NCBI GenBank assembly: GCA_949825025.1
Contig: OX463788.1
Location: 29,505,715-29,569,714 of the forward strand
Length of the DNA: 64,000 nucleotides
Reading direction: 5' to 3'
From: Siphlonurus alternatus
Taxonomy: Eukaryota > Arthropoda > Insecta > Ephemeroptera > Siphlonuridae
Shown here: piece by piece, positions 5,701-62,689 of the stretch
Numbering within the stretch: the first letter of the stretch is position 1
Layout: the number at the start of each line of letters is the position of its first letter
Notes under the pieces: generated by a model
Database searches by the model: none
Told to the model about the DNA's origin: nothing
The model's input: the letters and a program-made list of their open reading frames with translations, nothing else
Made by a program: the position numbers and the translations under genes

Positions 5701-5995
5701 AACTTATGTTCCATGCAATAATAATAAAAGTAGAGACAATAGCAAAATTTAAAATACAATCAACAAAAATCTCCTTTAAACCCACAACAAGTCATAGTTA
5801 TGATGAGTATGCCAGTGACAGTGTTAAAGCTGGATTCAGCTAGACACATTTTTTTGAGCGAGTTGAAATATCAATTTTCAATAATTAAAATTCTTAAAGT
5901 GGGATATGAAGCTTAAAAATAGATCCTTTACAACCCCCCCCCCCCATAAAAAATAATAAAAAAAACTAATAAATAAAATGATTCTCCAAGTAATG
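2370..5995. other. AT-rich DNA without recognisable gene
   Basis: Only short open frames of low-complexity composition are present. A CA/poly(A) tract lies at 2681-2720 and a C-rich run at 5296-5322. No splice-bounded exon, RNA gene or convincing transposon terminus was recognised. Confidence 0.5.
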
Positions 5996-6003
5996 AATAA
6001 AAT

Positions 6004-22991: not shown

Positions 22992-25900
22992 AAACTTCTA
23001 TCGTGTTTACCCGCCAAGACAAGAGAAGAAAACCTGTCAGAAAATTTAAAAGTCTTCCGAGGTGGGACTCGAACCCACAATATACAGGGTGTTTACTTTG
23101 ATTTGAACGCTTTAAAGTGATAATTAAGGAATGAAGTTCGATGGTATTATAGACATGTTATACATCAAATTAGAGCTTACATTTTAAAATTTTCAAATTT
23201 TAAATTACAAATGACATGTGTGGACTTGTCTTTTTTTGAGACGAAAAAGAAACATAAATGAGCTATTTTTTTGTTCAAATATCGGTGGTAACATGAAATT
23301 AAATATCCTTATAAAAATTCTGGCTTGATTACAAGTTTGACTACACCAAATAACTCAAGGTTATGCTCATGAGCACCGTTGGTACCCTGGCACAGGTTCA
23401 CATGCACCTCTGGTTCTTAACACACGTTGCTAATCCTTTCGGCGTAACAGACTCGACTGCAGAGCTAAATTTCGCTGATGCAACTTTCCGGCATTTCACG
23501 CTGGCGACTGCATCTTACGGGCAGCTTCTTTAAAAAAAATCAGGAGGAATGACGCCTGTGGACCAAAAGACTCATTTCGTGGGTCAATCATGCATGGCTG
23601 ATCCAGTGACCTGTGGAAAGACGTTATGGTTTTGCTGCTCCCACACTGCGTACACCCAGTGGCGGTCATTCGGAAAAAACCTAGCTTGTTTGTTTCGCGG
23701 GGGTCAAGCCAACCTTGCAATCTATCCTGGCATTTAAATGTGATTAATCGCAACGTGGAAACTTGTCAGGATGAATGCCACATGCATCTTAAAATTTTTT
23801 CAATGAACAGAAATGGAATGGTTCAATTCGTAGAGAAACCGCATTGTGGTAATGACCTCTGGATGGGAGAATTGCAATTTTTGTTTAAATTGTCACCCAT
23901 CCAACCACCAAAAACAAAGTTGCTTTACTTTGGTGATCTAAGGAAAATTGGCTAAACGCATTACATATCACTCCCACACCAACCCTGCTCAAAAATCTTG
24001 AGCAACATCTTACAAGATCTTTTATGATCTTGTCAAGTGAACTCAAGAAGTCCAAAAAAGAGGCAAGACAGTAATCAATGCTGGTCAGGAATATATATTA
24101 TCCTTCTAAAAATAATATTTAAGCAAAAAATTTGGGAAAAGTCAAAAAATAAGATATTTTTGGTTTAAAAAGATCTTGAGCAAGATAATAATCTTGTTCA
24201 AGACGTCATTTCTTACGTAAGATCGACATCTTGGCAAGAAACTTACTTGCGCAAGAAAAAATATCTTGCAAGATAGAAAATCTTGCGCGTGTTTTCGAAT
24301 TTTTTGCAAGATTATTTTTTGAGCTAGTTTATGGCTTGCGCACGATGGTAATCTTGCTCAAGAAGTCATTTCTTACGCAAGATAGACATCTTGGCAAGTA
24401 ATTAACTTGCTCAAGAAAAAATCTTACGTAAGATTGAAAATCTTGCGCGCGTGTTCAAAATTTTCTCAATATTTTTTCTTGGGTAAGTTCCCGTCTTGCG
24501 TAAGATCGCAATCTTGTGCAAGAAATCATTTCTTACCCAAGATTTCCATCTTGGGCAAGTAATAGACTCGAACAAGAAAAAATCTTACGCTTGTTCTCAT
24601 AGTTATCGCAAGATTTTTTCTTGGGTAAGTTACCGTCTTGTGTAAGATGGCAATCTTGGCCAAGAAATCATTTCTTACCCAAGATTTCCATCTTGGGCAA
24701 GTAATAGACTTAAGCAAGAAAAAATCTGGCGCGCGTGTTCAAAATTTTCTCAAGATTTTTTCTTGGGTAAGTTACCGTCTTGCGTAAGATGGCAATCTTG
24801 TGCAAAAAATCATTTCTTACCCAAGATTTCCATCTTGGGCTAGTAATAGACACGAACAAGAAAAAATCTTACGCTTGTTTTCATAGTTATCGCAAGATTT
24901 TTTCTTAGGTAAGTTACCGTCTTGCGTAAGATGGCAATCTTGGCCAAGAAATCATTTCTTACCCAAGATTTCCATCTTGGGCAAGTATTAGACTCAAGCA
25001 AGAAAAAATCTTGCTCGCTTGTTCAAAATTTTCTCAAGATTTTTTCTTGGGTAAGTTACCGTCTTGCCTAAGATGGCAATCTTGTGCAAAAAATCATTTC
25101 TTACCCAAGATTTCCATCTTGGGCAAGTAATAGACACGAACAAGAAAAAATCTTACGCTTGTTTTCATAGTTATCTCAAGATTTTTTCTTGGGTAAGTTA
25201 CCGTCTTGCGTAAGATGGCAATCTTGGCCAAGAAATCATTTCTTACCCAAGATTTCCATCTTGTACCCAAGAAATCCATCTTGGGCAATTAATAGACTCG
25301 TGCAAGAACAAATCTTACGCTTGTTTTCATAGTTATCGCAAGATATTTTCTTGGGTAAGTTACTGTCTTGTGCAAGATGGCAATCTTGTGCACGAAATCA
25401 TTTCTTACCCAAGATTTCCATCTTGGGCAAGTAATAGACTCGAGCAAGAAAAAATCTTAGGCTTGTTTTCATAGTTAACGCAAGATTTATTTCTTGGGTA
25501 AGTTACCGTCTTGCGTAAGATGGCAATCTTGGCCAAGAAATCATTTCTTACCCAAGAAATCCATCTTGGGCAATTAATAGACTCGTGCAAGAACAAATCT
25601 TACGCTTGTTTTCATAGTTATCGCAAGATATTTTCTTGGGTAAGTTACTGTCTTGTGCAAGATGGCAATCTTGTGCACGAAATCATTTCTTACCCAAGAT
25701 TTCCATCTTGGGCAAGTAATAGACTCGAGCAAGAAAAAATCTTACGCTTGTTTTCAAAGTTATCGCAAGATTTTTTCTTGGGTAAGTTACCATCTTGCGT
25801 AAGATGGCAATCTTGGCCAAGAAATCATTTCTTACCCAAGATTTCCATCTTGGGCAAGTATTAGACTTAAGCAAGAAAAAATCTTGCTCGCGTGTTCAAA

Positions 25901-28900
25901 ATTTTCTCAAGATTTTTTCTTGGGTAAGTTACCGTCTTGCGTAAGATGGCAATCTTGTGCAAGAAATCATTTCTTACCCAAGATTTCCATCTTGGGCAAG
26001 TAATAGACACGAACAAGAAAAAATCTTACGCTTGTTTTCATAGTTATCGCAAGATTTTTTCTTGGGTAAGTTACCCTCTTTCGTAAGATGGCAATCTTGG
26101 CCAAGAAATCATTTCTTACCCAAGAGATCCATCTTGGGCCAGTAATGGACTCAAGCAAGAAAAAATCTTACGCTTTTTTTCATAGTTATCGCAAGATTTT
26201 TTCTTGGGTAAGTTACCATCTAGCGTAAGATGGCAATCTTGGCCAAAAAATCATTTCTTACCCAAGATTAACTACCATCTTGTACCCAAAATTTACATCT
26301 TGGACAAGTAATAGACTCGAGCAAGAAAAAACTTTACACTTCTTTTCATAGTTATGGCAAGATTTTTCTTGTTTAAAATGGCAATCTTGTTCAAGAAGTA
26401 ATTTCTTACGCAAGATTTTAGTAAGGGTGAAAACCTCCCCATGGTCATATAATTTTTTTGCCGATCGATCGCACCTGTTTGCAGATTTTTTTTCTATTCA
26501 GAATCGCAATATTCAATTTTTTTTTAAATAAGGGTAACAGCACCCCCAATAATTATTCAGGGTTAATTTAATAACCGTCATTAAATTCAGCTTGCCAATT
26601 AACCTCTGGATACAAGTTTTCAGCTTGATCGGTGCATTTTTATTCATTTTCAAAATTGCGCGCGATGGCGCGCTAGAAAACGTTGGGAAACAAATGCAAT
26701 GCGATACACGTTTTTATAACATGTGTTGAAACTGAAAATGGACGGTTGGTGAACGTAAGAGCTGAAGAAGAAACATGAAGATTTTGTGTTCATTTGTGCT
26801 AATTTAGTACTTTATACACAGTTCCAGGTAAGCTTAAACTTATGTTTAGTTGTTTTTGTTTAATATATTGTTAAGCTCATAGAATATTTTATGTTTTTTC
26901 ATGAAATTCGGATGGCCGGACCTGCTTCCTGTTTGCCTTGCAACTGCTTGCCAACCTGGAATATGATGAATATACTGAGGACAACCTGCTGCTTGTTGTA
27001 TGCATAAAGCAACATGTCATAGAGATTAATTGCATTGCAGGGTTTTGTTTGTGATATTTTGAAAAAGGTATGTATAAAATACTGCAATGTATGATAAATT
27101 GATCAAAATCTTGCAAGATCTTGTGCAAGATTTGCTAAATTTCTATAGGAAATGTCTTGAACAAGAACTTTCTAGATTTGTGCCTAATTTTATTGACGAA
27201 TTTCTTTGTTTTTGACCCCCAGGTTCCACCGAGCCTAGCTGAAGGAGAAAATACATAGCATGGCCCGCGGAGTAAAAGAATTATTGAACGGAGAGGTGGA
27301 AGGAAGCAAAATGATGAACATATCCATACAGAAATGAAACCATGCATCATGAGACTTCCTTATTTAACGAAAACTAGCTGCAACTAACAGAATACTAACT
27401 TTGTTTGTTTTTGTTTTTTTTTCAGTACGTCATGTTGGCTATGTGACTCGGAGATTGCTACTTGGAATTGCCGCTACATTACTGACCCAACATGGCTGCC
27501 TTTCAACGGATTTAAACCAACCGACAGCATTGCACAAGATCTTGCGCAATTATTTTGATCTTGAGCAAATATTATCTTGACAAGATCATGCAAGATCTTG
27601 AGCAAGATACTATCACAAGATCTTGAGCAAATATTATCTTGCGCAAGATAATATCACAAGATCTTGAGCAAATATTATCTTGCAAGATCTTTCCCAAGAT
27701 CTTGCACAAGATCTTGCAAGATCTTGAGCAAAATGCTGTCACAAGATCTTGAGCAAATATTATCTTGAGCAAGATAATATCACAAGATCTTGAGCAAATA
27801 TTATCTTGCAAGATCTTTCCCAAGATCTTGCACAAGATCTTGCAAGATCTTGAGCAAGATGCTGTTACAAGATCTTGAGCAAATATTATCTTGAGCAAGA
27901 TAATATCACAAGATCTTGAACAAATATTATCTTGCAAGATCTTTCCCAAGATCTTGCAAGATCTTAAGCAAGATAACAATTGCTCAAGATATTGTGATAT
28001 GTCTTGCTCAAGATCTTTCCTAAGATCTTGCAAGATCTTGTGCAAGATCTTGGGAAAGATCTTGCAAGATTATCATCAGCATAATCTTGCCAAGATCTTA
28101 CAAGATCTTGGCTCAAGATTTTTGAGCAGGGAACCTGGCAATCCAGTGAAGGATTCAACAGTTAATTTCATGTTACCACCGATATTTGAACAACAAAACG
28201 GCTCAGTTTTGTTTCTTTTTCTTCTCAAGAAAAGACAAGTCCACACATGTCATTTGTAATGTAAAATTTGAAAATGTTAAAATATAAGCTTTAATTTTAT
28301 GTATGACATGTCTATATTACCATCGAACTTCATTCCTTAATAATCACTTTAATACGTTCAAATCAAAGTAAACACCCTGTATATATATATATAGATATAG
28401 ATATATAATATATTTATTCATGTATAATTCATGTATATATATAATAAACATTAAAATGAAATTAGCCTTTGATGTTAGGATAGATATGATAATAATTAAT
28501 AATAATTTTTTAAAAGTATAATAATAATAATATATAGATAATATAATATTATAATAAGATAAGTGTTGAATTTTAGAAATTCCACGCTTCCCGTCTCTTG
28601 CGCGAGTTTATCAATTTAATATAAACTTTAAATTCACTCTTGCTGCAAATAAATCTGTGGAATGCTTCATTTACAAGTATTTTGTAAATAGAGATAATGC
28701 CACAATACAATAATATCGAAAAATCTGTAATTTGTGATTTCTGTAGATATAATATCAAAAACCTTTAAAACGAGATACTTGATGCTGCTATGTTTCAAAC
28801 CTGTGTGCGCCGAGAATTTCGCGCATGCGCAGACAGAGGAGGAGTTGATTCCATTCCTGCGATGAATGTCTCGTTAACCTTGAAGTTAGTTCCACCGGAA

Positions 28901-31900: not shown

Positions 31901-34900
31901 GATCTCGAGAATATTATGTTTGACACGAATTGAACCGCTTCCAGGCTCTCCCAGTTTATGCGTTTCTCTGAACCCGCTCCGAACCGGTTCAACAGTTTAT
32001 GTGCTCCTCAGAACCCGTTCCGAAACGGTTCTGGAGTTTTTTCGTTCCTCTAAACCCGTTCCGAACCGGTTCGGAGTTCTTATGTGGTTTTAAGCGGTTT
32101 CAATCGTTCCGTTCCGGTTCGACTCCCTGGTAAAATACAAATCTTTGTAAAAATAAAAATAATAGTAATACAGATAATTATAAATACTTGAAAAATATTC
32201 CTATAAATACAAAATCCATGTTTCATGAACCAACTTATCTTAATGAAATTAAAAATATAATAAATTCTTTTAAAAATAAAAAATCCTCTGGATTTGATGA
32301 TATTCCTGATAATATTTTTAAGAAATGTTGCGATGGTGTTTTAGAGTGTTTTAAATGTAATTAGCTATTTGTATAATTTAAGCATAGATAATGGTATTTT
32401 TCCAACTTTATTAAAAACAGCCCAAGTTAACCCACTGTATAAAAAAGGATGTAAAAGTGATATTTGTAATTATCGGCCAGTTAGTTTGTTATCTTGCTTT
32501 TCCAAATTATTTGAAAAAATATTTTACAAAAAACTTCTTAAATTTTTACGTAATCATAATATATTATCAAAGTTTCAACATGGTTTTCAGGCGGGTAAAT
32601 GTACTGAAACAGCAATTTTTAACATGATTAATAAGATTTTAAAAGATATTGATGCAAAATATAAAACTGCTGGTATATTTCTGGACTTATCAAAAGCGTT
32701 TGATAAAGTAGATCATGAATTGTTATTGTATAAATTGTACAGATACGGCATTAAAGGTGTATGTAATGATTGGCTAAGATCCTTTGTAACTGGCCGCAAA
32801 CAATATGTAACATTAACAAAAGTGGACAAAAACGGTATTGCTTGCAATTATAAATCACAAGACCAGATATTAACCTCTTCTGTGTCTCAAGGTTCAATAT
32901 TGGGCCCAATATTATTCTTATTGTATGTAAATGACCTTCCAGATATTTGCCTTTTATATAAATCCGATCCACCTTTGTTTGCCGATGATACCAGTATTAA
33001 AATTTCAGCCGAAAATAACGAGTCACTTGCATGTAAGATAAATAATACTATCCCTCATATAGAGCAATGGTTCTCAAATAATGGTTTGTCAATTAATATA
33101 AACAATACAAATATTGAAATAAAAGATAATGTTAAATTTTTGGGATTGTATGTTGATAATAATTAAAGATGGGTTAATCATATTGATCGCCTGAGAAATA
33201 AGCTCGCTAGCACAATTTTTGCATTGAAAGAATTGAAAAATATTTGTGATATAAATTGTTTGAAAACTCTCTATTTTGCAAATTTTCATTCTCATATGAG
33301 GTATGGTATAATGTTCTGGGGAAATTCAAAAGACTCTGATTGTATTTTTATACTGCAAAAGAAAGCAATAAGAACCATGTATAACATAAAAAAAGTGAGA
33401 CATGTTCTACTAAATTTTCAGAGGAAGGAATATTACCACTACCTTGCCAATTCATTCTGGAATGTGTATGTTTTGCTAGAAAACAATATGATGAATATTT
33501 TAATGTACAAAAAAAATACAATTATCAGACAAGAAATAAAAATTTAATAATAACTCCATCAATTTGCAGGCTAGAACTTTGTAATAAAGGACCCCTCGCA
33601 ATGTGTATTAGATTGTATAATAAGTTACCACTTTGTGTAAAAGAAATTACAAATTATAGAGATTTTAAATATTCTGTGAAAATGTTACTTAATGATTGTA
33701 GTTTTTATAGTGTTAGTTCTTATTTACAGTTTAAGTTCTAATACACAAATTTTTGACGTGTCTAACCTTCATATTTAAAGTGCTTGCATTATCAATGTTT
33801 GTATTTGTATATGTGGAATTTGACGAATAAACCATTTGAATTTTATATAAAACATATATAAAGAGATTTTATTTTTATTTACGTGTACCCCATATAATAA
33901 TATATAATATTTGTTTATTGGGTTATAAAAATACATAATTTGGAGGGAAAAATAAAACGTATCAAAACCAATTGGTGAATGCAATAGACGAAAGTCCATA
34001 CACAAAATGCGTAAATTCACCCAAAGAAAATAATATCATTCAGACAATAATATTGTAACTACTTCGTCAAAATAATAAAATGAAAAGTTAAACAATTAAT
34101 AAAACAACAAACACCTAATTGATATACACGTATATGCAAGAGCATATCACACATCAGGTAAATGATATACTGGCCTTGCGGCCTTGCACAGTCAGGCAAG
34201 GAATTGTAAGCCCTGACCATAATACACGGGGAAAGAAGGAAGCGAGGTAAGCAGAATTTCCCATAGGTGTAGAGAGCACAATCTGACTATCACGCAATAC
34301 AGGTCTACGCTAACTCCTTTTGGTTGACACCCTCTCAGTGCTGAGAACACATTCAAATCATAACAACTTGAAAAACACTTACTTAAAAAGAAATATCAAT
34401 TTTGCACCACTGATCTCCCAAGCTTAATATGTCACACACTTAAAGCCTCTTCTCCTTATATGTATATATCTCCCATATATAGGAGCAACGCAATTGTTAC
34501 TTGAAACGTTCACCCATCCAATTAGTAACCACACTCAACGTTATATATAGCTTGACTTCGGTGATATAACGAGAATGCCAAGAAGCTCTTTGAATAAAGC
34601 CTCGCGATCTTTATTTAATTGCATATTTCAATTAACGTCAAACTGCCGGGATGATTTTCTACTGTGACGTGCGCTACGATATATAACTATCAAAAATTTC
34701 ATTAACAAAACACTTTTGTTAAAAGAGTATTAAAAAATTACATTAAATTTAAGTTTCGATAAAAAATCATGAAATATTATTCAGAAAGCCTCTTGGCGTA
34801 TTTCAATTAAAGGAGGGGAACCGCTTCAGCTTTTATATTTTTAACGTGTTATACATAATGTCAAACTTACTTGTGCACCAAAAAAAAAAGTCACCACCCT

Positions 34901-37900
34901 CCGCCTTCCACCAGTTGAAATTCAAAAAGTGCGCCAAAGAAAATTGGGGCATATGACGTCAAGATCAAAGATTGGTTGATAACGAGAATGCCAAGAAGCT
35001 CTTTGAATAAAGCCTCGCGATCTTTATTTAATTGCATATTTCAATTAACGTCAAACTGCCGGGATGATTTTCTACTGTGACGTGCGCTACGATATATAAC
35101 TATCAAAAATTTCATTAACAAAACACTTTTGTTAAAAGAGTATTAAAAAATTACATTAAATTTAAGTTTCGATAAAAAATCATGAAATATTATTCAGAAA
35201 GCCTCTTGGCGTATTTCAATTAAAGGAGGGGAACCGCTTCAGCTTTTATATTTTTAACGTGTTATACATAATGTCAAACTTACTTGTGCACCAAAAAAAA
35301 AAGTCACCACCCTCCGCCTTCCACCAGTTGAAATTCAAAAAGTGCGCCAAAGAAAATTGGGGCATATGACGTCAAGATCAAAGATTGGTTGCGCTTGACC
35401 AATCATGGCGCTTGACGTCATATGCCCCAATTTTCTATAGCGCGATTTTTGAATGTCAACTGCTGAACTGGTGGAAGAATGAGGGTAGTGACTATTTTTT
35501 TGGTGCACAAGTAAGTTTGACATTATTTATAACACGTTAAAAATATAAAAGCTGAAGCGGTCCCTCTTCTTTAACGTCAAACTACCAGGATGATGATTTT
35601 CTACCGACATGTACGTATAGTACGTGCTACGATATACTGTCAAAAATTTCATACACAAAACACTTTTGTAAAAAAGGATTAAAAAATTACATAAAATTCA
35701 AGTATTTTCGATAAGAAATCATTTTTAAAAATTAAATATCGTGATTGATTCAAGTTTCGAAATTTGAGGTTGCATGCGCGTGCGTGCACGGCACAATGCA
35801 TTGACCCGCGGTTCTCGTTATATCACCGAAGTCAAGCTATATACGTTAAGTTTGGTTACTAATTGGATGGGTGACCGTTTCAAGTAACAATTTCGTTCTG
35901 CTCCTACATATGGGGTACTTAAATAAAAAAAAATCGCTTTCCAACCCATGCATACATATATACAGCTAGTATATAATAGTGCAGTGATCGATGCACTTAA
36001 TTGTATGTGGTTCGATCGAATCCCCATGCACATGCAGTCTTTCGACATCACTTTGGTTCATTGGAAAAAATAGAGGTGCCCGCCCTGGCTGAGGTATTCT
36101 AATATATAGAGTCTATAACGTCAAAAGAACGAAAAATAAAAGAACGAAAACAATTTATATGAAAGAGGCATTACAAACCGAAAACAAAAAGGACGAAAGT
36201 AATTTAACACGAAAACATTTTATACGAAAATATAATTAATCGAAATGAAAAATGTGCGAATGCATTTATAACGAAACTTAAAAAGCATGCACGAAAGCAT
36301 TTACAGCGAAAACATTTTATATAGCCGAATTCAATAATCACGGAAAGCATTTGGTCGATAGTTTCTTGAACGAATTGAAAAACACCGATGAAGAAAAATA
36401 TTAATAAAAAATTATAACAATTATTAAACAAAAAATAAAACAAATAGAATTAATGCAATAGAGTCGAAGTATATTAAACATTTAGTAAAGTAAATTTGAT
36501 ATTATTTAGGAGCTAGCTATAGACAATTATTAAATGTATCGTGAAAACACGCATCATTAAAAACTTAAATTTTAGAAATCACGAATTGATGTTATATTAA
36601 ACACTTAAAGGCATACAGGCCTCAAATTACAAATTAGATAGTCACCAAGTGGGTTTAGAGTAAATAATCAACATTCGCATCATTTTTTTCCACACGTGAT
36701 GCATCCGTGCGAAGTCGCAGTTCAAAGTAAGAAATTTAGTCCTTGATGACGTCATGAAGTCCTTGATGACGTCACAACTCAATGCTAATCGGTGCTAGCT
36801 GTGAGTTGTGACGTCAGCAAGGACTTTCTTTGTAGTGCGACTTCGCACAGTCGCACCGCGCGCATGTAAAAATAATACGAATGTTTATTATAAACTCGAG
36901 CAACACTTAATGTCTGTCTAATTTGTAATTTGAGGCATGTGTCCCTTTAATTATAGCGGCGCTGTATATAAAATCAAAATTCATTATTACAATCATGTCG
37001 AGAGGCCTTAATTCCTAGTTGAAAAATTTCGTCTTCAACTCATTCTTTACACACACACACGACCAAACCTTACCTTTTTACCTCTAAAACACATCTTATT
37101 TCTTCTTCGCTGAAAGTGATGAGGATGAAATGAAGACAATATTTATAACATTTTATGTTCAAGAAGAGAAAAAAAGAGGTAATCTCGTCTATTTCACGTG
37201 TACCTCTTTTTTCCTCTAAAATGCATGGTGCAAAATAAGAGGAGATGAGAGGAGAGTTTAAAGTGAAAAAAAGATGAAATTTATTTCAACTCGTAGCGGG
37301 CGCTATATATGTATGTATAATATATTATATTATATATAGCATTGGTATAAAATGCATGCAGTTGCATGACATACATGATATTATTTTATATAAGGGTGTA
37401 TCTTTTTTCCATTATACTTCATAAATATGTATGTGTGTATTTCTATTATATATTATAATTATATTTTTTAGTAATTTTAATATAATATATTATAAAACTT
37501 TATTAAGTAAAAAATGTTTCCTTGATATAATATAAATATATATTTATATTACTTTTTTTTTCGTTCGTTTTTTCGTTCTAATTATATATTTTGCATTTCA
37601 TAAATTCGTTCAAATAAATTTTGTTCAAAGTGTTTCGTTATTTTTGTATTCGTCTTAAATGTTTTCGTGATTTTTGGATTCGTATTATAATAATTTCGTT
37701 CTAATTTACTTTCGTCCTTTTTTATTTCGGTCAAATTACTTTCGTACAAATTGTTTTCGTGATTTTTGTTCTCATTATTATTTTGTTTCGTATTAATTTA
37801 ATATCGTGGTAAATGATCGTTTATATTGGTTTTCGATGTAATTGTTTTCGGGATAGTTAAAGTAATTCCTTAAAAATGCTTTCGTGATTTTTGTTTTCGT

Positions 37901-43900: not shown

Positions 43901-46900
43901 TTTTAAAAGCCAACAAATAGTTTGACTGCACTTAGTTACATTATAAATTAATATAAAAATGCTTCCTGGATCCGGAAGTATACCAGCGTATATGGAGGAG
44001 GAAAAAAAAAAAAAAAAAATAGTAGCAGAATTATACCTTCGAGAGCTCGATATCTTCGAGAATCGTGTATGTAGGCGGTTAATTGTTCACTGGAGAACAT
44101 ATATATTTTATAATATATAAGAAGGATTTTAGATTTCAAATAAAGAATAAATACAATTTTATTAATAAATTAATAAATTTAGAAGGTTGAGAAAGGATTT
44201 TTTAAGCAAAACGATAATTAAGAGAATAATAATGCTGAGAATGTTTAATTACTGTCTCCATTTTACTTAATTTAAGTTCAAATTTTTTATATTTACAAAT
44301 TGCTTATTTTGAATACTTTTGTCAAGGTAAATTAATGCAAACTATTTTACTGAGAATTTTTTATTTACTGTTATGAAGTATTTGATTGTAAGCAACAGTT
44401 AATTTTAATTATTATTAAATTAATTTTTAAACTTTATTTCATGCAAGACCCACGTACAATTTCCTTGCTGCTATAAAATTTTTTATTCATCTTTCAATTG
44501 AAAATTTAATTGCTAAGTGATAATGATTAGAAATACGCCAAATTAAAGACGCCAGCAGCAATAGTTAAAAAATAAACCTAACCAGGAAAAAATAAATAAA
44601 TGTTGCTGTATTCACAATCATATCTTGTATAAATAGACCATAATGGCCCGCTTTTTTTATGAGCTAAATCGAAAGAGGGTAAAAAATTATGATGCTGTGA
44701 TTTTTTTGCGAATTTTTTGCGACCTCAAACATCTTTAATTTAATTATTATAATTTTAATTTTCAGTACTCCTTACCTGCTGGACATCCCTTACGACATTA
44801 TACATTCTTTGACGCGATGTATAGCAGCTTCCGTTAGTGTTTTTTTAACAGGTAATCATGGGTAAATTACGTAATTCCCGGCGCCACCTGGGCGCCGCGT
44901 AGTTTGAATATGATTCGACGAACTCATGGCAAAAATTCCCGTAACTTTACTAGAATCAATGCAGTGTACACTTGTAAGATCTGAGTAAATTTTGAACTTA
45001 TATAATTTACTTAAAAGATTAGGAAATTATACGAACTAACCATTATTTATGGCATACAATTCTAAAGTGATAGGAAATACCTTGAAATATAAAAAAAAGA
45101 CGTACCTGCCACGATCAACGATAACAATTTTTCAAACAGCACTTAAATTGCTCACATTGACACTAAACATTCATTGAAACTGTAATTTAATATTTGCACA
45201 AATCACTATTATATATGTTTCTTTATTAAAATTTTAGTATTATAAGCACTAGGCATAATAATATATTAACGAGGATCGAGAGAGAACATTCAGTAGAATT
45301 ATTACAAATGTTTATGTTATATATTCTACGAAGTTTATTTATCATGGCTGCTTCGAAGCTAGAAATCTTTGGTTTATATCATGTTTGAATAAAAAAACTC
45401 GGTTAACCTGCTCATCCTCATAAAAATATATAAAAATAGAGAACAAAGTCAACAAAACTTATTATTTATTGTGAAAATAACCATGGCATGCATTGTTTTT
45501 ATTTTCACTCAGCTGGAGTCGGCGAGTAGTCTCTTTATTTTATAGCGATCTATAATAAATCGATAATTATCTGCCTGATCAGAAGAGACTTACTTGTTAG
45601 TTCTCATTTCTGCCACGCATCATGTAACTAACAAAAATCATGTGGTGCTACTGTTTCTTACAATCATACAGATTATTATCGATTTATATCTAGATCGCTA
45701 TGAAATAAATATTATAGGCTCGCCGACCAGCTCCGTGTCAGCTGAGTGTTCTGAGAAAATAAAAACAATGCATACAAAGATTATTTTTTGCAATAAATAA
45801 TTTTTTTCTCTATTTTTAAGACTTAATAAATGATTAATATTTAACTATCCAATATTATAGTGGAACAAAGTCTGTAAGGATGAGCAGGTTAAATGAGTTT
45901 TTTTATTCAAACATGATGTAAACCAAAGATTTCTAGCTTCGAAGCAGCCATGATAAACTTCGTAGAATGTTTATAATAATTATACTGAATGTTCTCTATC
46001 CTCGTTAATACTATAGTGCTTATAATATTAAAATTTTAATGAAGAAACATAATAGTGATTTGTGCAAATATTAAATTACAGTTTCAATGAATATTTAGTG
46101 TCAAAGTGAGCAATTTAAGGGTAAGGTAACACCAACAATGTTAAAAAAAGTCCCTCACACAAAAATTCTGAAAAAAATTTAAAATGTTCTCCTTTACATC
46201 CCCTATCAGTATTTAAAATATCAGGTACACAAATACGATCTAGTTTTTGAGTTATGAATTTTTAAAGTTGACTAATTTAACATGGGAATTCCGTTTCTCC
46301 ATGTTAAAATAGCCAACTTTAAAAATTCATAACTCAAAAACTAGATCGTATTTGTATACCTGATATTTTACCTACTGATAGGGGGTATAGAGGAGAACAT
46401 TTTAAATTTTTTTCAGAATTTTTGTGTGAGGGATTTTTTTTAACATTGGTGGCGTTACCTTACCCTTAAGTGCTGTTTGAAAAATTGTTATCGTTGATCG
46501 TGGCAGGTACGTCTTTTTTTTATATTTCAAGGTATTTCCTATCACTTCAGAATTGTATGCCATAAATAATGGTTAGTTCGTATAATTTCCTAATCTTTTA
46601 AGTAAATTATATAAGTTCAAAATTTACTCAGATATTACAAGTGCACACTGCATTGATTCTAATAAAGTTACGGGCATTTTTGCCATGAGTTCGTCGAATC
46701 ATATTCAAACTACGCGGCGCCCAGGTGGCGCCGGGAATTACGTAATTTACCCATGATTACCTGTTAAAAAAACACTAACGGAAGCTGCTATACATCGCGT
46801 CAAAGAATGTATAATGACGTAAGGGATGTCCAGCAGGTAAGGAGTACTGAAAATTAAAATTATAATAATTAAATTAAAGATGTTTGAGGTTGCAAAAAAT

Positions 46901-49900
46901 TCGCAAAAAAATCACAGCATCATAATTTTTTACCCTCTTTCGATTTAGCTCATAAAAAAAGCGGGCCATTATGGTCTATTGTGATGCATGCAGAGCCTGC
47001 AGGAAAATTGCAGGATCACCTTTATTTGTTTCAGTTTTGGTAAGTCTGAGGTTGAGTACTCGCAGCTATAATAGCTATCGGATACGTATGCTATCGTTAA
47101 TTTGTTATAAAAAGTTCCTCTTTTTTGCGGTAAAATAAATAAATTTAGATTTTAGATCAGTATTTCAAAAAAAAAAAAAAAAAGAAAAAAAAATAATAAA
47201 ATACGAATCATAAATTTCAATCACATGGATAATTTTTTTTTTCTCTTAATTATTTCATAGCGCTTGATTTTAAATGCATGATGCTTTCATAAAATATAAT
47301 GTAAGACCAGAGCCCTAAGAAAGCTCTGATTATAATATGATATGAGACGGAATATTAAATTTAAACACTTAATTTAAAGAGGAGTCAGCGAGTTGAGTGC
47401 GCAGTGCATGACGGGAATGACGTCACGCACTATATATGTGCATACGAAAAAGTTACGTCGGCTCCTCAAAAGCTGCGCAGTAGAAATTTATGCAAGTTGC
47501 GCAATACGAGCATCTGCTGAAGTTATATAGTGTTGTTGATCCCGTTGATCCAGTCAGCTGTTAACCCGTAGACCGCAACATTTGAAATGAAAATTTGCCT
47601 CGGATTTTGGTATTGTATCAGAATTTCCTCAAAATTTTTATGAAGGGCTAATAAAGGTTATGACACTTTCTGATTCACCATAATATGTTCTATCTTAGAA
47701 TATTTTTTAAACACATTTTACGGGAGATTGCGAAAGAAATTAAAGTTCGAATAGAAAAGAAGCCACGTTTTTCGAGCGTTAGCATGGAGTAGATGGACGA
47801 AGTCATCGACTTTTAGACCCAAATGCCCAGAATTTTTACGAAGGACGGTCTCAACTGATTTCAGATGCTTATTTATGGTGCTCCAAAGAAAATTTTTAGA
47901 TGCAAGAGAATGAGCTTTACCATCGGTCAATTTTTCGCTCACTCTACTTTAAAAGATTGCGGAAATAATTGACACCTGGGCTAGACTACTGCAGTACAAC
48001 ATATAATATACATATTTTCTTCTTCATCCCACAAATACAGCTGATACATGCACTTTCATTCCCTCCAATTCGATCCCTGATCAATTTATGTAAAAGAGTC
48101 GCGTGCTCTTTAATTCCATTGGTTTTAGTTGTCATTTTCTTTTTATTTCCCTCTTTTTTTTCTCCGTCTTTTTCTTTTCTCCCTTTTACCCCATTTTTTT
48201 TCTTTCTGACCGGCGGCCCAAATTTGCCCAGGTGGACCACTTTTGCCGCGACCCACCGACCCATGCTCGGTGGATCGGTAGGCCAGTCCGTGCCTGACCA
48301 ACTGTATACATGAGGATTTTTTATCCATATTGAACGTTGGATACGCTTGAAATGAGCGTTGTACTGTTAAGCCGGTATTACATGATACAATTTTTCCAAC
48401 TATTGCATACAGTTTTTCCTTTCAAGAAAACTTGAACTCCATTTATTTGTATGGAGATGAAATTTTCTTGCAAGGAAAAATTGTATGCAAAATTGTACAG
48501 TGTAATACAGGCTTTAGTGTTAGTAAAGAGATGATATTTAAAACCTGCCTCATTTCTCCGTTCAAAAAAACACACCACAATGTCTTTGTCCTTAAGAATG
48601 CTCCTCACCTTGTGGATTGCTGTCTGCAGCAGCGATGTCACCCATTTCTTCCGTGTCTGAAATTCGAACCTTGTCTTGCCTCTCAGCCGGCTCCAACTCT
48701 GTATCGGAGTCAGACGGTGACGACGACCTATGTTCAGATTGCGACATACTGCTGTTTAGCAAAGTCTCATTGATTTCTTCTTTATTTAGTTTTTTAAGAC
48801 GTATTATTATTTTGTTTGATTCTACATGAATTGGTGCTGATGACTCAAACTTACGTCTCCTTGCTTCTAAGACTGTAGACACTACTTTAGTTTCATGATG
48901 TGGTAAAGGGACATCCTTTGGCTTTGATTTAACTTTTAAATTATTCCTTGCTTCTTTCTTACTCCTTACAAGAGGATCTTTTGTGGTTTTATTTGTCATT
49001 TTCTCATTATCTGTGACAAGAAATTTTCTTTTGTCAGTTTTAACAACTTTGATTGGTACCATCCGTCTCCTACATGCTTGCACTTTTCTAGGTGGAGGTG
49101 ACGGACTTAAACTTAATACACTAGAAGAGCAACTTCTAGACACAGAATGAGATCTTCCTTGTGGTGGTGGAGAAACAGTGTTCCTACTGATATTTAATCG
49201 AGGCCTTTTTGGTGCATATGGTGCATATGGCACAGGGGATAGGGACCTTTTAAACAACTTATCATGTGGCGAGAGATTCCTTTTTGACGTTCTTATTGAG
49301 GGACTTGCAGCATGCTTCCTCATAAGAGTTCTTGGCGGAGACTGAGATGTTGACCGTTCTCTGGGCGGTGAGAACCGTCTATAAGGTGAGGTTGAGCGTC
49401 GTTTTATTGGAGAGTGATGAGAGGGAGGTGACCTTCTGCAAGGAGAAATCTGACGGGGCCAGTGCCTTTCAGGCGTAATTGAACGCCTGGAGCCTACTCT
49501 CCAGGAAGGGGAATGCCTTCGAGATCCCGATCTTGACCGCCTTCTAGGAAACCTCCATGCTCTTGGAGAACCTCGTCTTCTCTCAGGAGACACAGATCGC
49601 CTACTTCTGCGTGGTGACACTGGTGAAAGCCTCCGCTCTCGAGGTGGTGGTGAGGGACTTCTTTTAGGTGACAGACTATCAGGTACTATTTTTCTGACTG
49701 GAGGATTGTGACTGTCACTAAAAGTTTTGCCAACTGCAAACTTCTTGGGCTTGACACTCGTGGATGCAGACACGGAACATCTTCTTTTCGGCTTCTCATC
49801 ATCTCCAAACTCCTGCTCAAACTCATCCAGAAGCTTCCCAAGACTGTCCTCATCTTGCATGAGGATGACATCAGGATCAACATCCTCCTCAATAGGCTGT

Positions 49901-52900
49901 GGCGCTTCTTTTTTGCTGTCCATGGCCTCGGCTGCCTCCTCATCCTCGTCCGCAGAATCATCCTCTTTTATGGGGCTAGAAGTGGCATCTTCCTCCTCTT
50001 CTTCTTCACTCTCATCAGAGTCAGATCGCTCATAGCGGCTGAACTTGCTGGGAACTGCAAAGAAAACATTAATATTTCAGAATATTTTTTAGTTGATTAC
50101 ACAATTCAATGTTCTGCATTGCATTTGATTTCACACTCGTGTGCCATCAATTAATAACAATAATTTTAATATTTTAAATTTTTAATAATGCAATATTTGA
50201 ATATTTTATTTTGAAGAAAATCTTAGAGAAAATTATAAGGTTGTGATTTTCATTAATTTAAAGGATAAATATTGCCTTAGAGCAAGACATTTTTAATAGA
50301 CAGGCCACACATAATAGGTGAGAATTTTTGCCACTTTAATATTATTAACATATGTTAGGTGACCCTCCAAAGTTCATGCAACATAAAAAAAAAGGTTTTT
50401 GAAAATGTTCTGTTAAAACTGTAATAGGCTAGCACACTACACTAATTCTTGAGACATTTTTGAGGCTGTCAGGTGATTTCCAGTTTCTCTTTTTTAAAAA
50501 TATTACCGATACAGAAGTCAATAATAATCAAAATAACTTGAAAATAGATACAGTAATGAATTCATGTTTTTATTTATTTATTTTTTTTTATTGCTAAATA
50601 TGACAGATAAAGTTCCCTATTTTCAAACAGTTCAGTTATATTTTATTCAAAATTTCAAGAGATTTACATAACTGGGTAATATTGAGCAGCAACTATTATT
50701 ATTTTATTTACTTCCATTATGCAATTATGTAGTTTCTTTTAATTAATATGTATGATATTATACATATTGCTATATGTTTGCTCAATAAACATTTATTATT
50801 ATTATTTAGTTGTAAAACTCCCAACCTAGTTGGGGTGGTTAACCGCCAGCACCAGTCCCAATTGGGCCAAGATGAAGGCACGCCCCGGATTTTGTTAAGG
50901 GTGTTATGGTCCAGCATCTCTTATTCAGATGCGGGCAATGAGGGCTTCCCGGGTCTACCCGCAAATAGGGGCAGGTGCTCTCCTATCCGCGAGCACTCGG
51001 GATGCTAGTCATCTTTTACCAGAGCACTTAGAGGTGGGGATTCTCTTGGGCTTCCCAACCAATACCCTGGCCGCCCTGTGGTTCTTGAACCACAGGCTAG
51101 GGGCCAGAGATCACACTCGCAAGGCAACTTCCAACCATCCTGAATGTCCTTTCTCGACGGGGAGGGGGGGGGGAGAGGGGAGAAGGGACGTGTACTGCGA
51201 GCCAGGACATGAGATAATGCCATGCCTTTATTATTATTATGATCTTCTAGAAAAAAAATTAAATATTAAATGACCATTTATAATTACATATTTATTATTT
51301 CAACCATATACTGTACAATGTACAATTACTGAATGTACTGAGAGCACTCAGGTAGTCATGATGAAAGAAAATTGATATGGCAGAATTTTCACAAAAATAG
51401 GAGATATTTATCTACAATTGGAGAGAGATTTACCAGAAATTTAATTGAAACTTGAGGGCTTCAAATTTCTTACTGTATTTTTCTATTCTAACAAACAACT
51501 GGAGTACATAAATTGAATGATTCGGTAAGCTACATTGCTAGGAAACCTACCAGATGATTTTTGCTCTATTCTTGGCTCAGACTCAAGTTTTGCCACCTCT
51601 GCAGATATACAGTAGTGGTCTTGCGGAAGCACTAGCTTGGTGTCAATAGCTGTCATCGCCGATAATTCAAGACCAACAGGCTTACAAAAGCTTCTCACTG
51701 GCAAAGTTTCTTCTGAGCCAATAGGAACTATTGATATTAAATTGCTACGATTTATTGGTTGCTGAACCTGCCAGCCTCCTCTGTTCATATAGCCATTGCC
51801 CCGAGTTGATCCATACAATGGCTGAAAACAAGAAAAAGTATTAAATACAGTATGTTATAATAATAGTGTACAGTAAAACCTCGATTTTACGAAGTTGAAG
51901 GGACCGAAAAATCGGGACTTCGTTAATTTGAGGTTCGTAAACTCGAGGTCCTCGAAAATATTTTAAGAAATGCCATAAAACGTATGAATTAATTAACAAA
52001 TTATTGCAATAAAAATTCGTTTTTATAATTTATTCAGACTTATTCGAGTGGTAAAAGAGATAAAAACAGTAGAAATATATGAAATAGCGTAAGTTAAAAA
52101 GATCGCGATTTACGCGAGTGATCGATCGCGTATTATATTCAAGTCACGCGGTAATTCGGGATGACGTGAAAATATAAAAAATAAATTAAAATGTAAGTTA
52201 GACAAATAACATATGGCATTAAAAAATTATTATTAATGCCATGTAAAAGAAAACATTAACGTTGCGATGTAAATTTACATCTCTTAATTAAGGGTAAGAT
52301 AACACGAACAATCGACTGTTGGTAGTCCCATTTGATTAACATGTAAACCTTAGCAACCTCATAATGATTCTGATATATGATATATAGTCCAGGAATATTA
52401 AGTTATGAGGTGGACAAAATTAGATAAAAGTTGAAGCTTGGTACACATGTTCCTGAGGACCATCTAAAGCATCCCTGAAAAGTCCCCTAAAATCCGATCT
52501 CCGCTAACCGAGAAAACCGGGTTTTTGCCCGGGACACTTGATATTTTCAAAAATCATTAATTTCTTTGCATGTAAGCATTTCACATGGCTACTGAAAGCA
52601 TTAAATTACAACCAGTGCCATAATTATTAATGTCAGAAACCACCGGGATGGATTTCGAAAATATAGTGCCCGAAATTCCAGTCACAAGTGCATCTAGGTT
52701 GCAATTTTCATTATGAATTTGCATTCACGTGGTAAATATGCTATTTATCGCTGTAAATCTTATTATAAATCTGATCTTTTCTTTCGTGCTGACAATTTAA
52801 AATGAATTTGAAATAAATAACACGTACGGTCTTAATTTTATGTGAATTTTTGAATCTAATATTAGGTAAAAAAGGGGCGTGGCTTACATATAGTATTGGA

Positions 52901-55900
52901 TCATATACGTATTATATGCTACAGAATGTCAGATATTGCTTTTCCTACGATAAGTGTAGTCTTAAACTTAATTAACAGAATGGTAATTACCCTTATGATT
53001 CCTATCTAACCCCCCCCCTCCCCGAAAATTTTGACCAACCCCAAAAATAATTCTCAAGTTTTAAAAAAAGTTTTTTATTTTATACAGAAAATAACTTTAT
53101 GATGCAGGGTGAGTATAGGCAAGGTATAGTACGTACCTTGAGGCGGGGGGGAAGGGGGGTAACCCCCACCCCGATCCGAAAATTTATTTCCTCTTGATAC
53201 ATGTCATATAGATATATATAGATAACTCTATTATCTTTTAGTGCATGGGCATAAATATTATATAAATAATTTTACTATTCATTTTGAAGCTATAATGCCT
53301 AAGATAAATTAAACTGTTGTTTATACTATTAAATAATTTTAGTTTCTAATAATATAGAAAGTACAAACTCTATATATTATGAAACTATACTTTATATAGT
53401 TAATGATGAAGACAGGAGAGTCGTAACCAAAATTTCTGATCATTGAACAAAATATTTTAAAAAATATATGTAGTTTAGATTATTAATTGTTTCATAAGAA
53501 ACTCAATTGTTCTATAAATTCACACTTTTGCAATGGTTAATTTATTTATTTAAAATTTCAACTTAACTTATCACCAATAAGAAATTTTTAGAAGTCAACT
53601 TAATTGATTCTTTAATTCTTTTACTAACTTTATTCAAATTTTGTATAAGTTTGTTTGAAATAAAAAATAAACAATCAAACTCATATGGCGAAGTTGACAG
53701 TTTTATAGATAAAGACATCTTTAATTTTATTTTCAACAAATCTTATATAGTGAATAGGTTGACAACTAGCCTCTATAAATATCTGCTCTTTTATGAATAA
53801 TATTACAGTACATAATACAGCTGACTATGATGAGGGATTGCAAATCTTGGATGAACTAAACCAGGTGCACATATATAATTATTTACACCTGACATGGACT
53901 TAACAAGGAAAAAATTTTACTGAAAAATTAGTTAATTGTTTACTTGTAATACTGTATCTGTATACTTATACTGTATAATTATATGCTTTAAAATTGATAA
54001 ACTTTTTTTCTTTTGAATTTATAATTATCCATATATAAAAGTCGAAAGTTGATGGCACTAACAATCAAGAATTTGGCTAAATTTGCAATATAAATATATG
54101 CACACTAATTATCAAATATCTGTATATTATATCATATCAAGGGAAAATAAATTTAGGGATCGAGATGGGGGTTACCCCCCCGCCCCAAGGTACGTACTAT
54201 ACCTTGCCTATACTCACCCTGCATCATAAAGTTATTTTCTGTATAAAATAAAAAACTTTTTTTAAAACTTGAGAATTATTTTTGGGGTTGGTCAAAATTT
54301 TCGGGGAGGGGGGGGTTAGATAGGAATCATAAGGGTAATTACCATTCTGTTAATTAAGTTTAAGACTACACTTATCGTAGGAAAAGCAATATCTGACATT
54401 CTGTAGCATATAATACGTATATGATCCAATACTATATGTAAGCCACGCCCCTTTTTTACCTAATATTAGATTCAAAAATTCACATAAAATTAAGACCGTA
54501 CGTGTTATTTATTTCAAATTCATTTTAAATTGTCAGCACGAAAGAAAAGATCAGATTTATAATAAGATTTACAGCGATAAATAGCATATTTACCACGTGA
54601 ATGCAAATTCATAATGAAAATTGCAACCTAGATGCACTTGTGACTGGAATTTCGGGCACTATATTTTCGAAATCCATCCCGGTGGTTTCTGACATTAATA
54701 ATTATGGCACTGGTTGTAATTTAATGCTTTCAGTAGCCATGTGAAATGCTTACATGCAAAGAAATTAATGATTTTTGAAAATATCAAGTGTCCCGGGCAA
54801 AAACCCGGTTTTCTCGGTTAGCGGAGATCGGATTTTAGGGGACTTTTCAGGGATGCTTTAGATGGTCCTCAGGAACATGTGTACCAAGTTTCAGCTTTTA
54901 TCTAATTTTGTCGACCTTACCCATGTTATTTGAACTAAATTTCCTGGACTAATATTATGATGTAACAGGCTGTTAATATCATCTGTTATTTTATTTTATA
55001 TTCTTTTATTATCATTTTCTATTATTCTGTAACTATTATATATAGTTTGTATGTGTGTTTTATGTGTTCTATTACAGTGTTATTTTATAATGTATATTTC
55101 TAATGTTATTTTGTATGTACACTTTTTGTGTTTAATAAAAGACTAATAAATAAATAATGATTCTGAATTTTTTTTGAGAGACAGTTCTTGGCACCAAAAA
55201 AATATGGAAAAAATTTCAAAACAATCGGACGATCCAATTTTTTTAAATTAATTTCTTAGTTTAGGTCTCCACGGGAAAGCCCTATACTGAAAATTTAAAA
55301 AATTCATTTAAAAAAAATTGGATTGTCCGATTGTTTTGAAATTTTTTCCACATTTTTTTGGTGCTAAGAACTGCCTCTAAAAAAAAATTAAGAATTATTA
55401 TGAGGTTGCTAAGGTTTACATGTTAATCAAATGGGACTATCAACAATCGATTGTTCGTGTTATCTTACCCTTAAGAAATCGCAATTTTTACGTGAATATT
55501 ATAACATCGCGGACGTGACTTGAAGGGGCGAAAAAAAAAAAAAAAAAGCTTCAGTTCAATTCTGTGCATTTTAGGTCTTTTAGAAAATGAAAGAACTCGT
55601 ATCAATATCGTTTTCGCAATCAACATTTGAAAAGCAGTCAATGTTAGTAACGTTATTTCTATATGCGTAGTCAATAAAATAAATATACGTATCATTCGCA
55701 CTGTTCATATACAGTACGTGGTTAATTTTCTATAACGACGTGCGTTTTATTTGATTTTTTTACAGTTTTATTTTCTATTAATAATTTATTAAATAAAATT
55801 TAAAATTGAACATTAAAATTAAATGAAGTTTTGAGGGTATATTAATGTACTCCATGCAGCAATGCAATGTACGATCTGGACGAAGAGGATTCATCATGCA

Positions 55901-60762: not shown

Positions 60763-61442
60763 ATTTCTGTGTTTCAATATTTTGATTGCTATACTATATA
60801 ACAAAGTATTACATAGTAAATTTCAATATTTTCTATATTATAAATGTATAGCCTTATCTCTAAAATTATGTTACATGATTAAAAATATATAAAACTTTTA
60901 TAAGTATATTATTCTCACAATAACTGAAATATGTATTTTCTGTATTAATCTGTATAAATGTTGTTAATTTAATGTTTGTTCATTTTATAGTACTGTAACA
61001 CTTTTTTTTTTTTTTTTTCTAAATTTCATTTTTTTTTTTTTCTGTAAATTCTAAATTTTATGTGTTTTGCCATCTTGTTTGGATCTATGTGTATTTGACG
61101 TTCCCCATATATGAGTTTCTAACTCTTGGGGTTTAATTACCATACAATTATATTGTATTTTTTAATTATTTGAAAAAAATCGAACTAAGCGATATTTATT
61201 TTTTTGAAAGTATAGATAGAAAAACACATATGATAGAAAAAGATTTGTTGGGAAGGGAGATAGTTCGAGCTTTTAGCCGTCAGTGACCCAGCAAAAAGAG
61301 AAAAATTAATTAAAACAACGCTATGCGTGTATATTAGGTTTGACTCGCCGCTCGTTTTAGAGAGAGAGAGGGATTTTTTGGCTTGATCAGCTAGTTTTTG
61401 CTAGCAAAATCGTCACACAAATAATACATTTGGTGCGCCACT

Positions 61443-61500
61443 CTCTAGCCATGGACAGCTGTTTCGGCCTACTGGGCCTCATCAGCATGGCGAGGAGAGA
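61443..61500 (-). ncRNA. type I hammerhead ribozyme, minus strand
   Basis: Same sequence as the 62.3-kb copy, on the minus strand: CTGATGA core at 61479-61485, stem II GGCC-CAGTA-GGCC, GAAA, two-base-pair stem III (AC/GT) closed by AGCT, cleavage triplet GTC (61454-61456), then CATGGC pairing back with GCCATG for stem I. Cleavage is predicted between 61454 and 61453. Confidence 0.85.
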
Positions 61501-61578
61501 GAGGCAGCAGCTCCCAGCCAGGTCTACATGAGAGCAAGACTATCGAGCTACTGCCAAAGTAGCAGAGTTCGCGCGGCC

Positions 61579-61585
61579 TTTTATA
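61579..61585 (-). promoter_or_regulatory. TATAAAA box upstream of the minus-strand ribozyme
   Basis: Minus-strand CCGGTATAAAAGGCCG, about 95 nt upstream of the CTGATGA core. Mirror of 62223-62229. A promoter role is inferred from motif and position. Confidence 0.5.
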
Positions 61586-62222
61586 CCGGCGATCCGAGTC
61601 TCGCAATTATAGCGCGACTCTTCATTGGCTGCTACTTTGTAGGCGCCAAAAGTTTAAATATGTAACGCTATCGCAGCAAAAACCATTGACAAGCCAGGAA
61701 TTTGAAATAAAAGGTAGAGATAGTGGGATTTGATAGAGGGTAAAAGATGGACAACACAGGAGAAGGAAAAGGAAGAGAAAATCGAACTAGCGATATTAAT
61801 TAATTATTTGAAAAAAAATCGAACTAAGCGATATTTATTTTTAAAAGTAGATAGAAACACATATGATAGAAAAAGATGCTGGGTCACTGACGGCTAAAAG
61901 CTCGAACTAAATCCCTTCCCAACAAATCTTTTTCTATCATATGTGTTTTTCTATCTATACTTTCAAAAAAATAAATATCGCTTAGTTCGATTTTTTTCAA
62001 ATAATTAATTAATATCGCTAGTTCGATTTTCTCTTCCTTTTCCTTCTCCTGTGTTGTCCATCTTTTACCCTCTATCAAATCCCACTATCTCTACCTTTTA
62101 TTTCAAATCCCTGGCTTGTCAATGGTTTTTGCTGCGATAGCGTTACATATTTAAACTTTTGGCACCCACAAAGTAGCAGCCAATGAAGAGTCGCGCTATA
62201 ATTGCGAGACTCGGATCGCCGG

Positions 62223-62229
62223 TATAAAA
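62223..62229 (+). promoter_or_regulatory. TATAAAA box upstream of the plus-strand ribozyme
   Basis: CCGGTATAAAAGGCCGCG lies about 100 nt before the ribozyme core, in a locally GC-rich segment. Likely pol II promoter of the element (inference). Confidence 0.5.
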
Positions 62230-62304
62230 GGCCGCGCGAACTCTGCTACTTTGGCAGTAGCTCGATAGTCTTGCTCTCATGTAGACCTGGCTGGGAGCTG
62301 CTGC

Positions 62305-62367
62305 CTCTCTCTCCTCGCCATGCTGATGAGGCCCAGTAGGCCGAAACAGCTGTCCATGGCTAGAGAG
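62305..62367 (+). ncRNA. type I hammerhead ribozyme, plus strand
   Basis: Core CTGATGA at 62323-62329. Stem II GGCC (62330-62333) / GGCC (62339-62342) with loop CAGTA. GAAA at 62343-62346. Short stem III A-C/G-T with loop AGCT. Cleavage triplet GTC at 62352-62354, cut predicted after 62354. Stem I is CATGGC (62355-62360) with GCCATG (62317-62322), extended past an internal loop by GAGAG (62363-62367) with CTCTC (about 62305-62313). All invariant core positions are present. Such very short stem III is typical of animal retroelement hammerheads; the palindromic ACAGCTGT could also allow dimers. Confidence 0.88.
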
Positions 62368-62689
62368 TGGCGCACCAAATGTATTATTTGTGTGACGATT
62401 TTGCTAGCAAAAACTAGCTGATCAAGCCAAAAAAATCCCTCCCTCTCTCTAAAACGAGCGGCGAGTCAAACCTAATATACACGCATAGCGTTGTTTTAAT
62501 TAATTTTTCTCTTTTTGCTGGGTCACTGACGGCTAAAAGCTCGAACTATCTCCCTACCCAACAAATCTTTTTCTATCATATGTGTTTTTCTATCTATACT
62601 TTCAAAAAAATAATTATATTGTATTATGTATTAATGTATATGTGTTTTCTTCATGAATAAACAAATGTAACAAAAAAAAAAAAGTACAC

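Follow-up and report, generated by a model that had tools for sequence, protein, structure and literature searches.

Head-to-head hammerhead ribozyme units with structural marks of Penelope-like insertion in the genome of Siphlonurus alternatus

Layout of the insertion

The window, which is the whole 64,000-nucleotide stretch of contig OX463788.1 analysed here, comes from the 455.7 Mb genome of Siphlonurus alternatus (102 contigs), and is A+T-rich with several LINE fragments. A LINE ORF of the window matched 64 sequences, of which the few that carry names belong to a pseudoscorpion, a springtail, a moth and an aphid (27–34% identity) and to one sequence labelled as a bacterial MAG (42%). Alignment of the two halves of a nearly palindromic sequence at 61160–62611 showed it to be a single insertion consisting of two copies of a 639-nt unit, with the 5' ends of the copies meeting at 61877/61878 and both 3' ends pointing outward (Table 1). 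The unit length corresponds to the distance between a sequence of ≈100 nt at the start of the right copy and the same sequence at its end. An inverted-repeat search paired 61374–61817 with 61991–62434 (99% identity) and 61192–61379 with 62430–62617 (98%), and the arms of the insertion differ by six mismatches and one gap across 627 nt. The first-pass annotation had described one palindromic insertion, and this description is borne out by the 98–99% fold-back arms and by the exact 14-bp duplication that encloses them. Nesting of one copy into the other was rejected, since both copies share a single enclosing duplication and the centre of the insertion showed no further one. In a control with 5,000 random flank pairs (flank windows of 60 × 100 nt, 400–1800 nt apart, which match those used for each insertion only roughly), a match of at least 14 nt was found in 1.2% and of at least 11 nt in 2.3%.

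Table 1. Features of the insertion and its flanks (positions in the window).
Feature	Position	Strand	Remarks
Target-site duplication, left copy	61146..61159		14-bp exact repeat AATTATATTGTATT adjoining the insertion
639-nt unit, left copy	61160..61877	-	718 nt = 1.12 units, from 61877 (5') to 61160 (3', outward); from aligned halves and repeat spacing
Extra 3' sequence of left copy	61160..61197	-	38 nt, absent from right copy; resembles the PLE 'tail' ('tail' as used in PMC11167929)
Type I hammerhead, left copy	61448..61491	-	RF00163, 32.1 bits, E 1.1e-5; cut predicted after 61454 from the GUC motif
TATA box, left copy	61579..61585	-	points outward; read from sequence
639-nt unit, right copy	61878..62611	+	734 nt = 1.15 units, from 61878 (5') to 62611 (3', outward); from aligned halves and repeat spacing
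Sequence at 5' end of right copy	61878..61925	+	48 nt, absent from left copy; staggered arms; from alignment
TATA box (TATAAAA), right copy	62223..62229	+	≈100 nt before the ribozyme core; read from sequence
Type I hammerhead, right copy	62317..62360	+	RF00163, 32.1 bits, E 1.1e-5; cut predicted after 62354 from the GUC motif
Target-site duplication, right copy	62612..62625		exact 14-bp repeat adjoining the insertion

On inspection of the sequence, both ends of the insertion lacked a poly(A) or simple-repeat tail, and microhomology at the central junction did not exceed 1 nt. The longest ORF with an ATG start encodes 45 aa; the insertion has no ORF for the reverse transcriptase and GIY-YIG endonuclease of Penelope-like elements (PLEs), and is thus not an autonomous PLE. 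At the centre of the insertion, Rfam also matched Plastid-psbM, MIR2118 and MIR6462, but far below gathering; these matches were taken to be an effect of the long A+T-rich hairpin.

Each copy is longer than one unit, yet contains one ribozyme. Monomer release by hammerheads requires two ribozymes in the same direction. With one ribozyme per strand and TATA boxes that point outward, the known mechanism would not lead to release of a 639-nt monomer, and the circles of ≈640 nt that had been predicted are therefore not expected from this insertion. A read-through RNA containing a ribozyme and its complement had also been envisaged; because the element's own TATA boxes point outward, such an RNA would need an outside promoter.

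Hammerhead ribozymes

The twin hammerheads on opposite strands, originally picked out from the sequence as identical, are identical across 63 nt (61441–61503 on the minus strand and 62305–62367 on the plus strand). The Rfam model RF00163 aligned to both across all 45 model positions, in agreement with the earlier assignment to type I with a minimal stem III. In the covariance-model check that had been proposed, both strands matched, with an E value that stems from a 1.6-kb search, but the score of the two copies is 1.9 bits lower than the gathering score of 34 and, by that check taken strictly, falls short of the threshold. Because of this shortfall, an Rfam scan of the whole window at gathering gave no match. 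In an RF00163 search of the same genome, in which 73 of 39,909 first-look candidates were scored, the best four hammerheads had 39.3, 34.1, 34 and 33.3 bits, three of them marked as above the cut-off. When six loci were run through cmscan at gathering, two of these best-scoring hammerheads (39.3 and 34.1 bits) were recovered, and Rfam at gathering gave no match in L031 or L009, the two sequences that hold the 554-nt array described below. The window hammerheads share with RF00163 a full-length match, the core and three covarying stems, and depart from it in the low score and the minimal stem III.

Covariation was assessed in an alignment of seven copies belonging to three sequence families: A (the window and L006b), B (four copies) and C (the 554-nt unit). 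Pairing was found in 89.9% of the 119 cells, and 7 of the 17 pairs had changes on both sides. None of 500 shuffles reached the observed covariation score of 0.305, and slid versions scored at most 0.165. Some of the family B copies have broken pairs. The minimum-free-energy fold of the isolated 67 nt at 62304–62370 was not the textbook hammerhead, as the CUG of the core pairs with CAG; the fold has a z score of −2.55 and was equalled by 5 of 200 shuffles. Judged by sequence, the window copies have the core, the three stems and a GUC-type cleavage site with stem I open that define the type I class, and the predicted ribozymes are likely to be active.

Other hammerhead loci in the genome

Hammerheads were sought with a pattern scan (up to two substitutions) of 322,590 bases from 27 sources; L031 was instead covered by comparison with the 554-nt unit and by Rfam at gathering. 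The sites fall in seven insertion loci, namely the window, L006b, the 554-nt array, L005, L006a, L007 and L008. This count leaves aside four poor pattern matches (two in L017, one each in L019 and L029) and pieces of the window family that have no hammerhead (L007:8327-8424, L015:608-681 and L020:8059-8180). The loci differ in provenance: the window was chosen for its palindrome, L005, L006a, L007 and L008 came from the Rfam search, and L006b and the 554-nt array turned up by chance in other sequence.

A head-to-head arrangement in which the inverted arm reaches the 3' side of the element was found at five of the seven loci (the window, L006b, the 554-nt array, L005 and L007), representing three sequence families; setting the window aside leaves four of six. 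L006b (L006:7821-8735) is of the same family as the window unit and 93% identical to it. L007 is head-to-head, but nested palindromic elements obscure its ends. L006a consists of a single arm, with no inverted arm and no flanking duplication of at least 9 nt, and in L008 the inversion is limited to an internal piece of 21–26 nt. A TATA-like box precedes the core by 99 nt in family A, where it reads ATAAAA, by 83 nt in family C and by 91 nt in L005; the ATAAAA box is absent from L006a and L007.

Exact repeats adjoin five of the seven inserts, with lengths of 14 bp (window), 13 bp (L006b), 12 bp (554-nt array), 11 bp (L005) and 14 bp (L008). The ends of the arms were read from the sequences themselves and from alignments of the window and L006b arms. 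In three of the four measurable inserts, the 3' end of one arm is longer, by 38 nt in the window, 35 nt in the 554-nt array and 37 nt in L005, unlike L006b, where the 3' ends lie ≈70–80 nt apart. In the window, L006b and L005, the arms are staggered, so that each has sequence missing from the other. The left arm in the window extends 38 nt further at the 3' end and the right arm 48 nt further at the 5' end, and L005 is staggered in the same sense. In L006b, the right arm is longer at the 3' end and the left arm at the 5' end, the left covering unit positions 92–696 and the right 208 to about 764. The right arm of L006b also contains ≈139 nt of foreign sequence (L006:8498-8636) between unit positions ≈283 and ≈672, perhaps the result of a template jump.

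The 554-nt array lies ≈7 kb before the window, from L031:2675 to L009:1813 (C11:29493389-29498527), and its hammerhead unit is unrelated to that of the window. In coordinates of the joined L031 and L009 sequences (base 1 = C11:29490715), the plus arm starts at 4125, ends at about 7813 and comprises six full and two part units, ≈6.7 in total, while the minus arm, from 4131 back to about 2675, comprises ≈2.05 units and is interrupted by a foreign piece of 315 nt. A 12-bp duplication encloses the entire array. The foreign piece (L031:2872-3186) has a 9-bp duplication of its own, GGAGAGAGC, and short internal repeats around CAGAAGAAACCGGAAAGC. On the 3' side, the arms end at positions ≈126 and ≈161 of the unit, which places these ends about 93 and 128 nt past the predicted cut; the 5' ends are at positions 101 and 351. 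The left arm is contained in the right arm at both ends, and there are ≈5 nt of complementarity (TGTTG/CAACA) at the junction.

The units of the array are 99.3–100% identical to the reference unit. The array thus looks recent, and it may be possible to observe the process of insertion in this animal. Some variants are common to non-adjacent units (A191T in R3 and R5; A309G in R4 and L1), which does not fit a single monomeric circle copied faithfully; linear multimers, a change of template or later exchange between units may account for them. Between the arms, A474T is present in R1 and not in L0, while A309G and G436A are present in L1 and not in R2. With ribozymes in the same direction 554 nt apart, this array, rather than the window insertion, would be the place to expect circles.

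Comparison with known elements and origin of the inverted layout

The closest likeness is to PLEs of the Penelope/Poseidon type, such as rotifer Pen and Anolis PAc. In the accounts of these elements, as here, an inverted unit lies head to head inside one short duplication, with partial tandems, a TATA promoter in the repeat, an optional 30–40-bp tail on one 3' end, an AT-rich target and a type I hammerhead (PMC3846280, PMC11167929). The head-to-head unit within one short duplication is seen in the window, L006b, the 554-nt array and L005, and a tail of 30–40 bp on one outward 3' end in three of the four measurable inserts. For rotifer Penelope, the insertions are described as having a head-to-head inverted pLTR and partial tandems, with a TATA + Inr promoter inside the pLTR and, in some cases, a tail of 31 bp attached to one inverted pLTR; some families mostly lack an inverted pLTR, among them Pen1, whose copies mostly have direct pLTRs only (PMC3846280). 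The same source gives duplications of 8–10 bp, compared to 11–14 bp here, with some copies lacking a duplication. The inverted layout had at first been considered unusual. Head-to-head copies are reported as the most frequent inverted arrangement in rotifer Penelope (PMC3846280) and were found here at five of the seven loci, so that the layout is normal for PLEs.

Purified PAc protein is reported to cut and extend both target strands, to prefer AT-rich DNA, and to start reverse transcription at two adjacent sites, the interval between which forms the optional 30–40-bp tail, called unique to PLEs; PAc has a hammerhead, which was dispensable for insertion in vitro (PMC11167929). Unlike in these PLEs, there is no ORF between or within the repeats of the units described here and no enzyme gene was identified, and only the unit is copied, with as many as ≈6.7 copies in one arm. 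The scanned ORFs (10 of the 33 long ORFs in the sampled loci and 10 of the 37 in the window) included no PLE or GIY-YIG gene, giving RVT_1 or nothing, together with one zf-RVT match below the cut-off.

The animal (non-LTR) retrozymes described in PMC7229834 are likewise short ORF-less repeats with type I hammerheads and low G+C, have duplications that exceed the 4 bp found in plant retrozymes, and occur as direct tandem copies, which are represented here by the six full head-to-tail units in one arm of the 554-nt array. Those retrozymes measure ≈170–400 nt, whereas the units here, at 554 and 639 nt, fall outside this range and are additionally joined head-to-head. The word "inverted" does not appear in the main text of PMC7229834, and we recognised no description of head-to-head hammerhead retrozymes among the papers listed by searches of open-access full text. 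As to what moves animal retrozymes, the Discussion of PMC7229834 names PLEs as a strong candidate because the two co-occur. The kinship with both PLEs and retrozymes that was suggested from the outset agrees with the PLE anatomy and the ORF-less hammerhead units.

ORF-less hammerhead units of three families in one genome thus bear structural marks of PLE insertion, and given the head-to-head layout and the tail-length difference between 3' ends, we file them as PLE-mobilised, ORF-less units and not as autonomous PLEs. The window insertion is probably a non-autonomous Penelope-type element that comprises only a promoter and a hammerhead unit, as the counterpart of a PLE pLTR or as a large animal retrozyme, and that was inserted in one event by the reverse transcriptase and endonuclease of a PLE, supplied in trans. 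The points against this reading are the lack of a PLE or GIY-YIG gene in the ORFs scanned, the wide spacing of the 3' ends in L006b, the single arm of L006a and its lack of a flanking duplication, the short inverted piece of L008, the missing ATAAAA box in L006a and L007, the dispensability of the ribozyme for PAc insertion in vitro (PMC11167929), and the variants common to non-adjacent units of the 554-nt array.

Insertion of such an element would start with transcription from the internal TATA promoter into an RNA of tandem or circular units, which the hammerhead could trim. A staggered cut at an A+T-rich target, to which the duplications attest, would then allow reverse transcription from both cut ends, presumably by a PLE enzyme, with two start sites ≈37 nt apart towards the 3' side of the unit. 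Each copy would proceed through more than one unit, as in the window, or through several, as in the 554-nt array, on a template that may be circular or linear. As the copies cross the ribozyme cut site unbroken and exceed one unit, the template was presumably uncut or religated there, and either tandem or circular; the 639-nt length of the unit fits such a template in the past of the element. The two cDNA ends would finally meet and be joined, which would give the head-to-head 5' ends observed.

More tentatively, head-to-head hammerhead arrays may be the footprint of a two-ended rolling-circle insertion, in which both strands of one staggered cut serve as primers for a PLE reverse transcriptase, the template being circular or multimeric hammerhead RNA that is copied round from each side until the cDNA ends are joined. 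If true, this would be direct evidence that PLE enzymes move animal retrozymes, and self-priming would be replaced as the origin of inverted Penelope repeats.

Self-priming, in which the strand folds back and is copied so that one target-primed start is enough, would produce the inverted arm in the same PLE-type element, and in 2013 a version with an antisense template was preferred for the Penelope elements of rotifers (PMC3846280). It predicts nested arms, such as those of the 554-nt array with their short complementarity at the junction. In the window, L006b and L005, however, neither arm contains the other, and such staggering favours two separate starts, one on each side of the cut, which would accord with the activity of PAc on both strands. 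Trimming of the arm ends could mimic the stagger, so the staggered arms are evidence and not proof; the near absence of microhomology at the window junction also speaks against fold-back priming. In the 554-nt array, the variants of the left arm do not track the units of the right arm, although later mutation or exchange could cause this mismatch, and the array as a whole is compatible with either model. On balance, we consider self-priming unlikely for these insertions. The staggered arms also bear on the origin of the inverted Penelope repeats, a question left to further experiments in PMC3846280.

Movement of a hammerhead retrozyme by a LINE, with the inversion made by L1-like twin priming, appears improbable. 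The window and the sampled loci are rich in LINE reverse transcriptases, and the short inverted internal piece of L008 resembles the product of twin priming. L1 twin priming also places an inverted piece inside one duplication through two priming events, but its two pieces derive from separate parts of a single RNA, whereas both arms here span the same whole unit or several. In addition, the window insertion ends without a poly(A) or simple-repeat tail, and the ≈37-nt difference between 3' ends is described as a signature of PLEs (PMC11167929).

We rejected a palindromic DNA transposon (a fold-back element or MITE) that acquired a hammerhead: an inverted repeat does span 35 of 200 random control points in this genome, but the window copy and L006b have different ends and 5' junctions, the duplications vary from 11 to 14 bp, and the arms of the 554-nt array are unequal, with ≈6.7 and ≈2.05 tandem units, which makes this origin very improbable. 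The automatic palindrome filter flagged five of eight hammerhead positions and missed the 554-nt array, and was therefore used as a background rate only. Long-read data are known to suffer from fold-back chimeric reads, but it is hardly credible that the structure arose as an artefact of reads or assembly, or that two separate insertions happen to adjoin here: the arms differ in sequence and at their ends, both copies lie within a single duplication, and unrelated units show the same layout at independent sites.

Several other repeats were observed. At 34566–35391 of the window, a 413-bp unit forms a tandem duplicate with 100% matches, which is either very recent or a doubling in the assembly. 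Tandem arrays of ATCTTG/CAAGAT palindromic motifs are located at 24175–26371 and 27574–28119, with units of 142/284 bp and 34–126 bp, and large inverted repeats without a hammerhead at 44632–46980 and 52408–54917, with arms of 515 nt (98.6%) and 819 nt (96.7%). Palindromic elements of ≈360–650 bp, some with TTAA-like ends, are common in the genome (L007:2069-2719 and 5421-6062; L020:2109-2500; L025:7825-8187).
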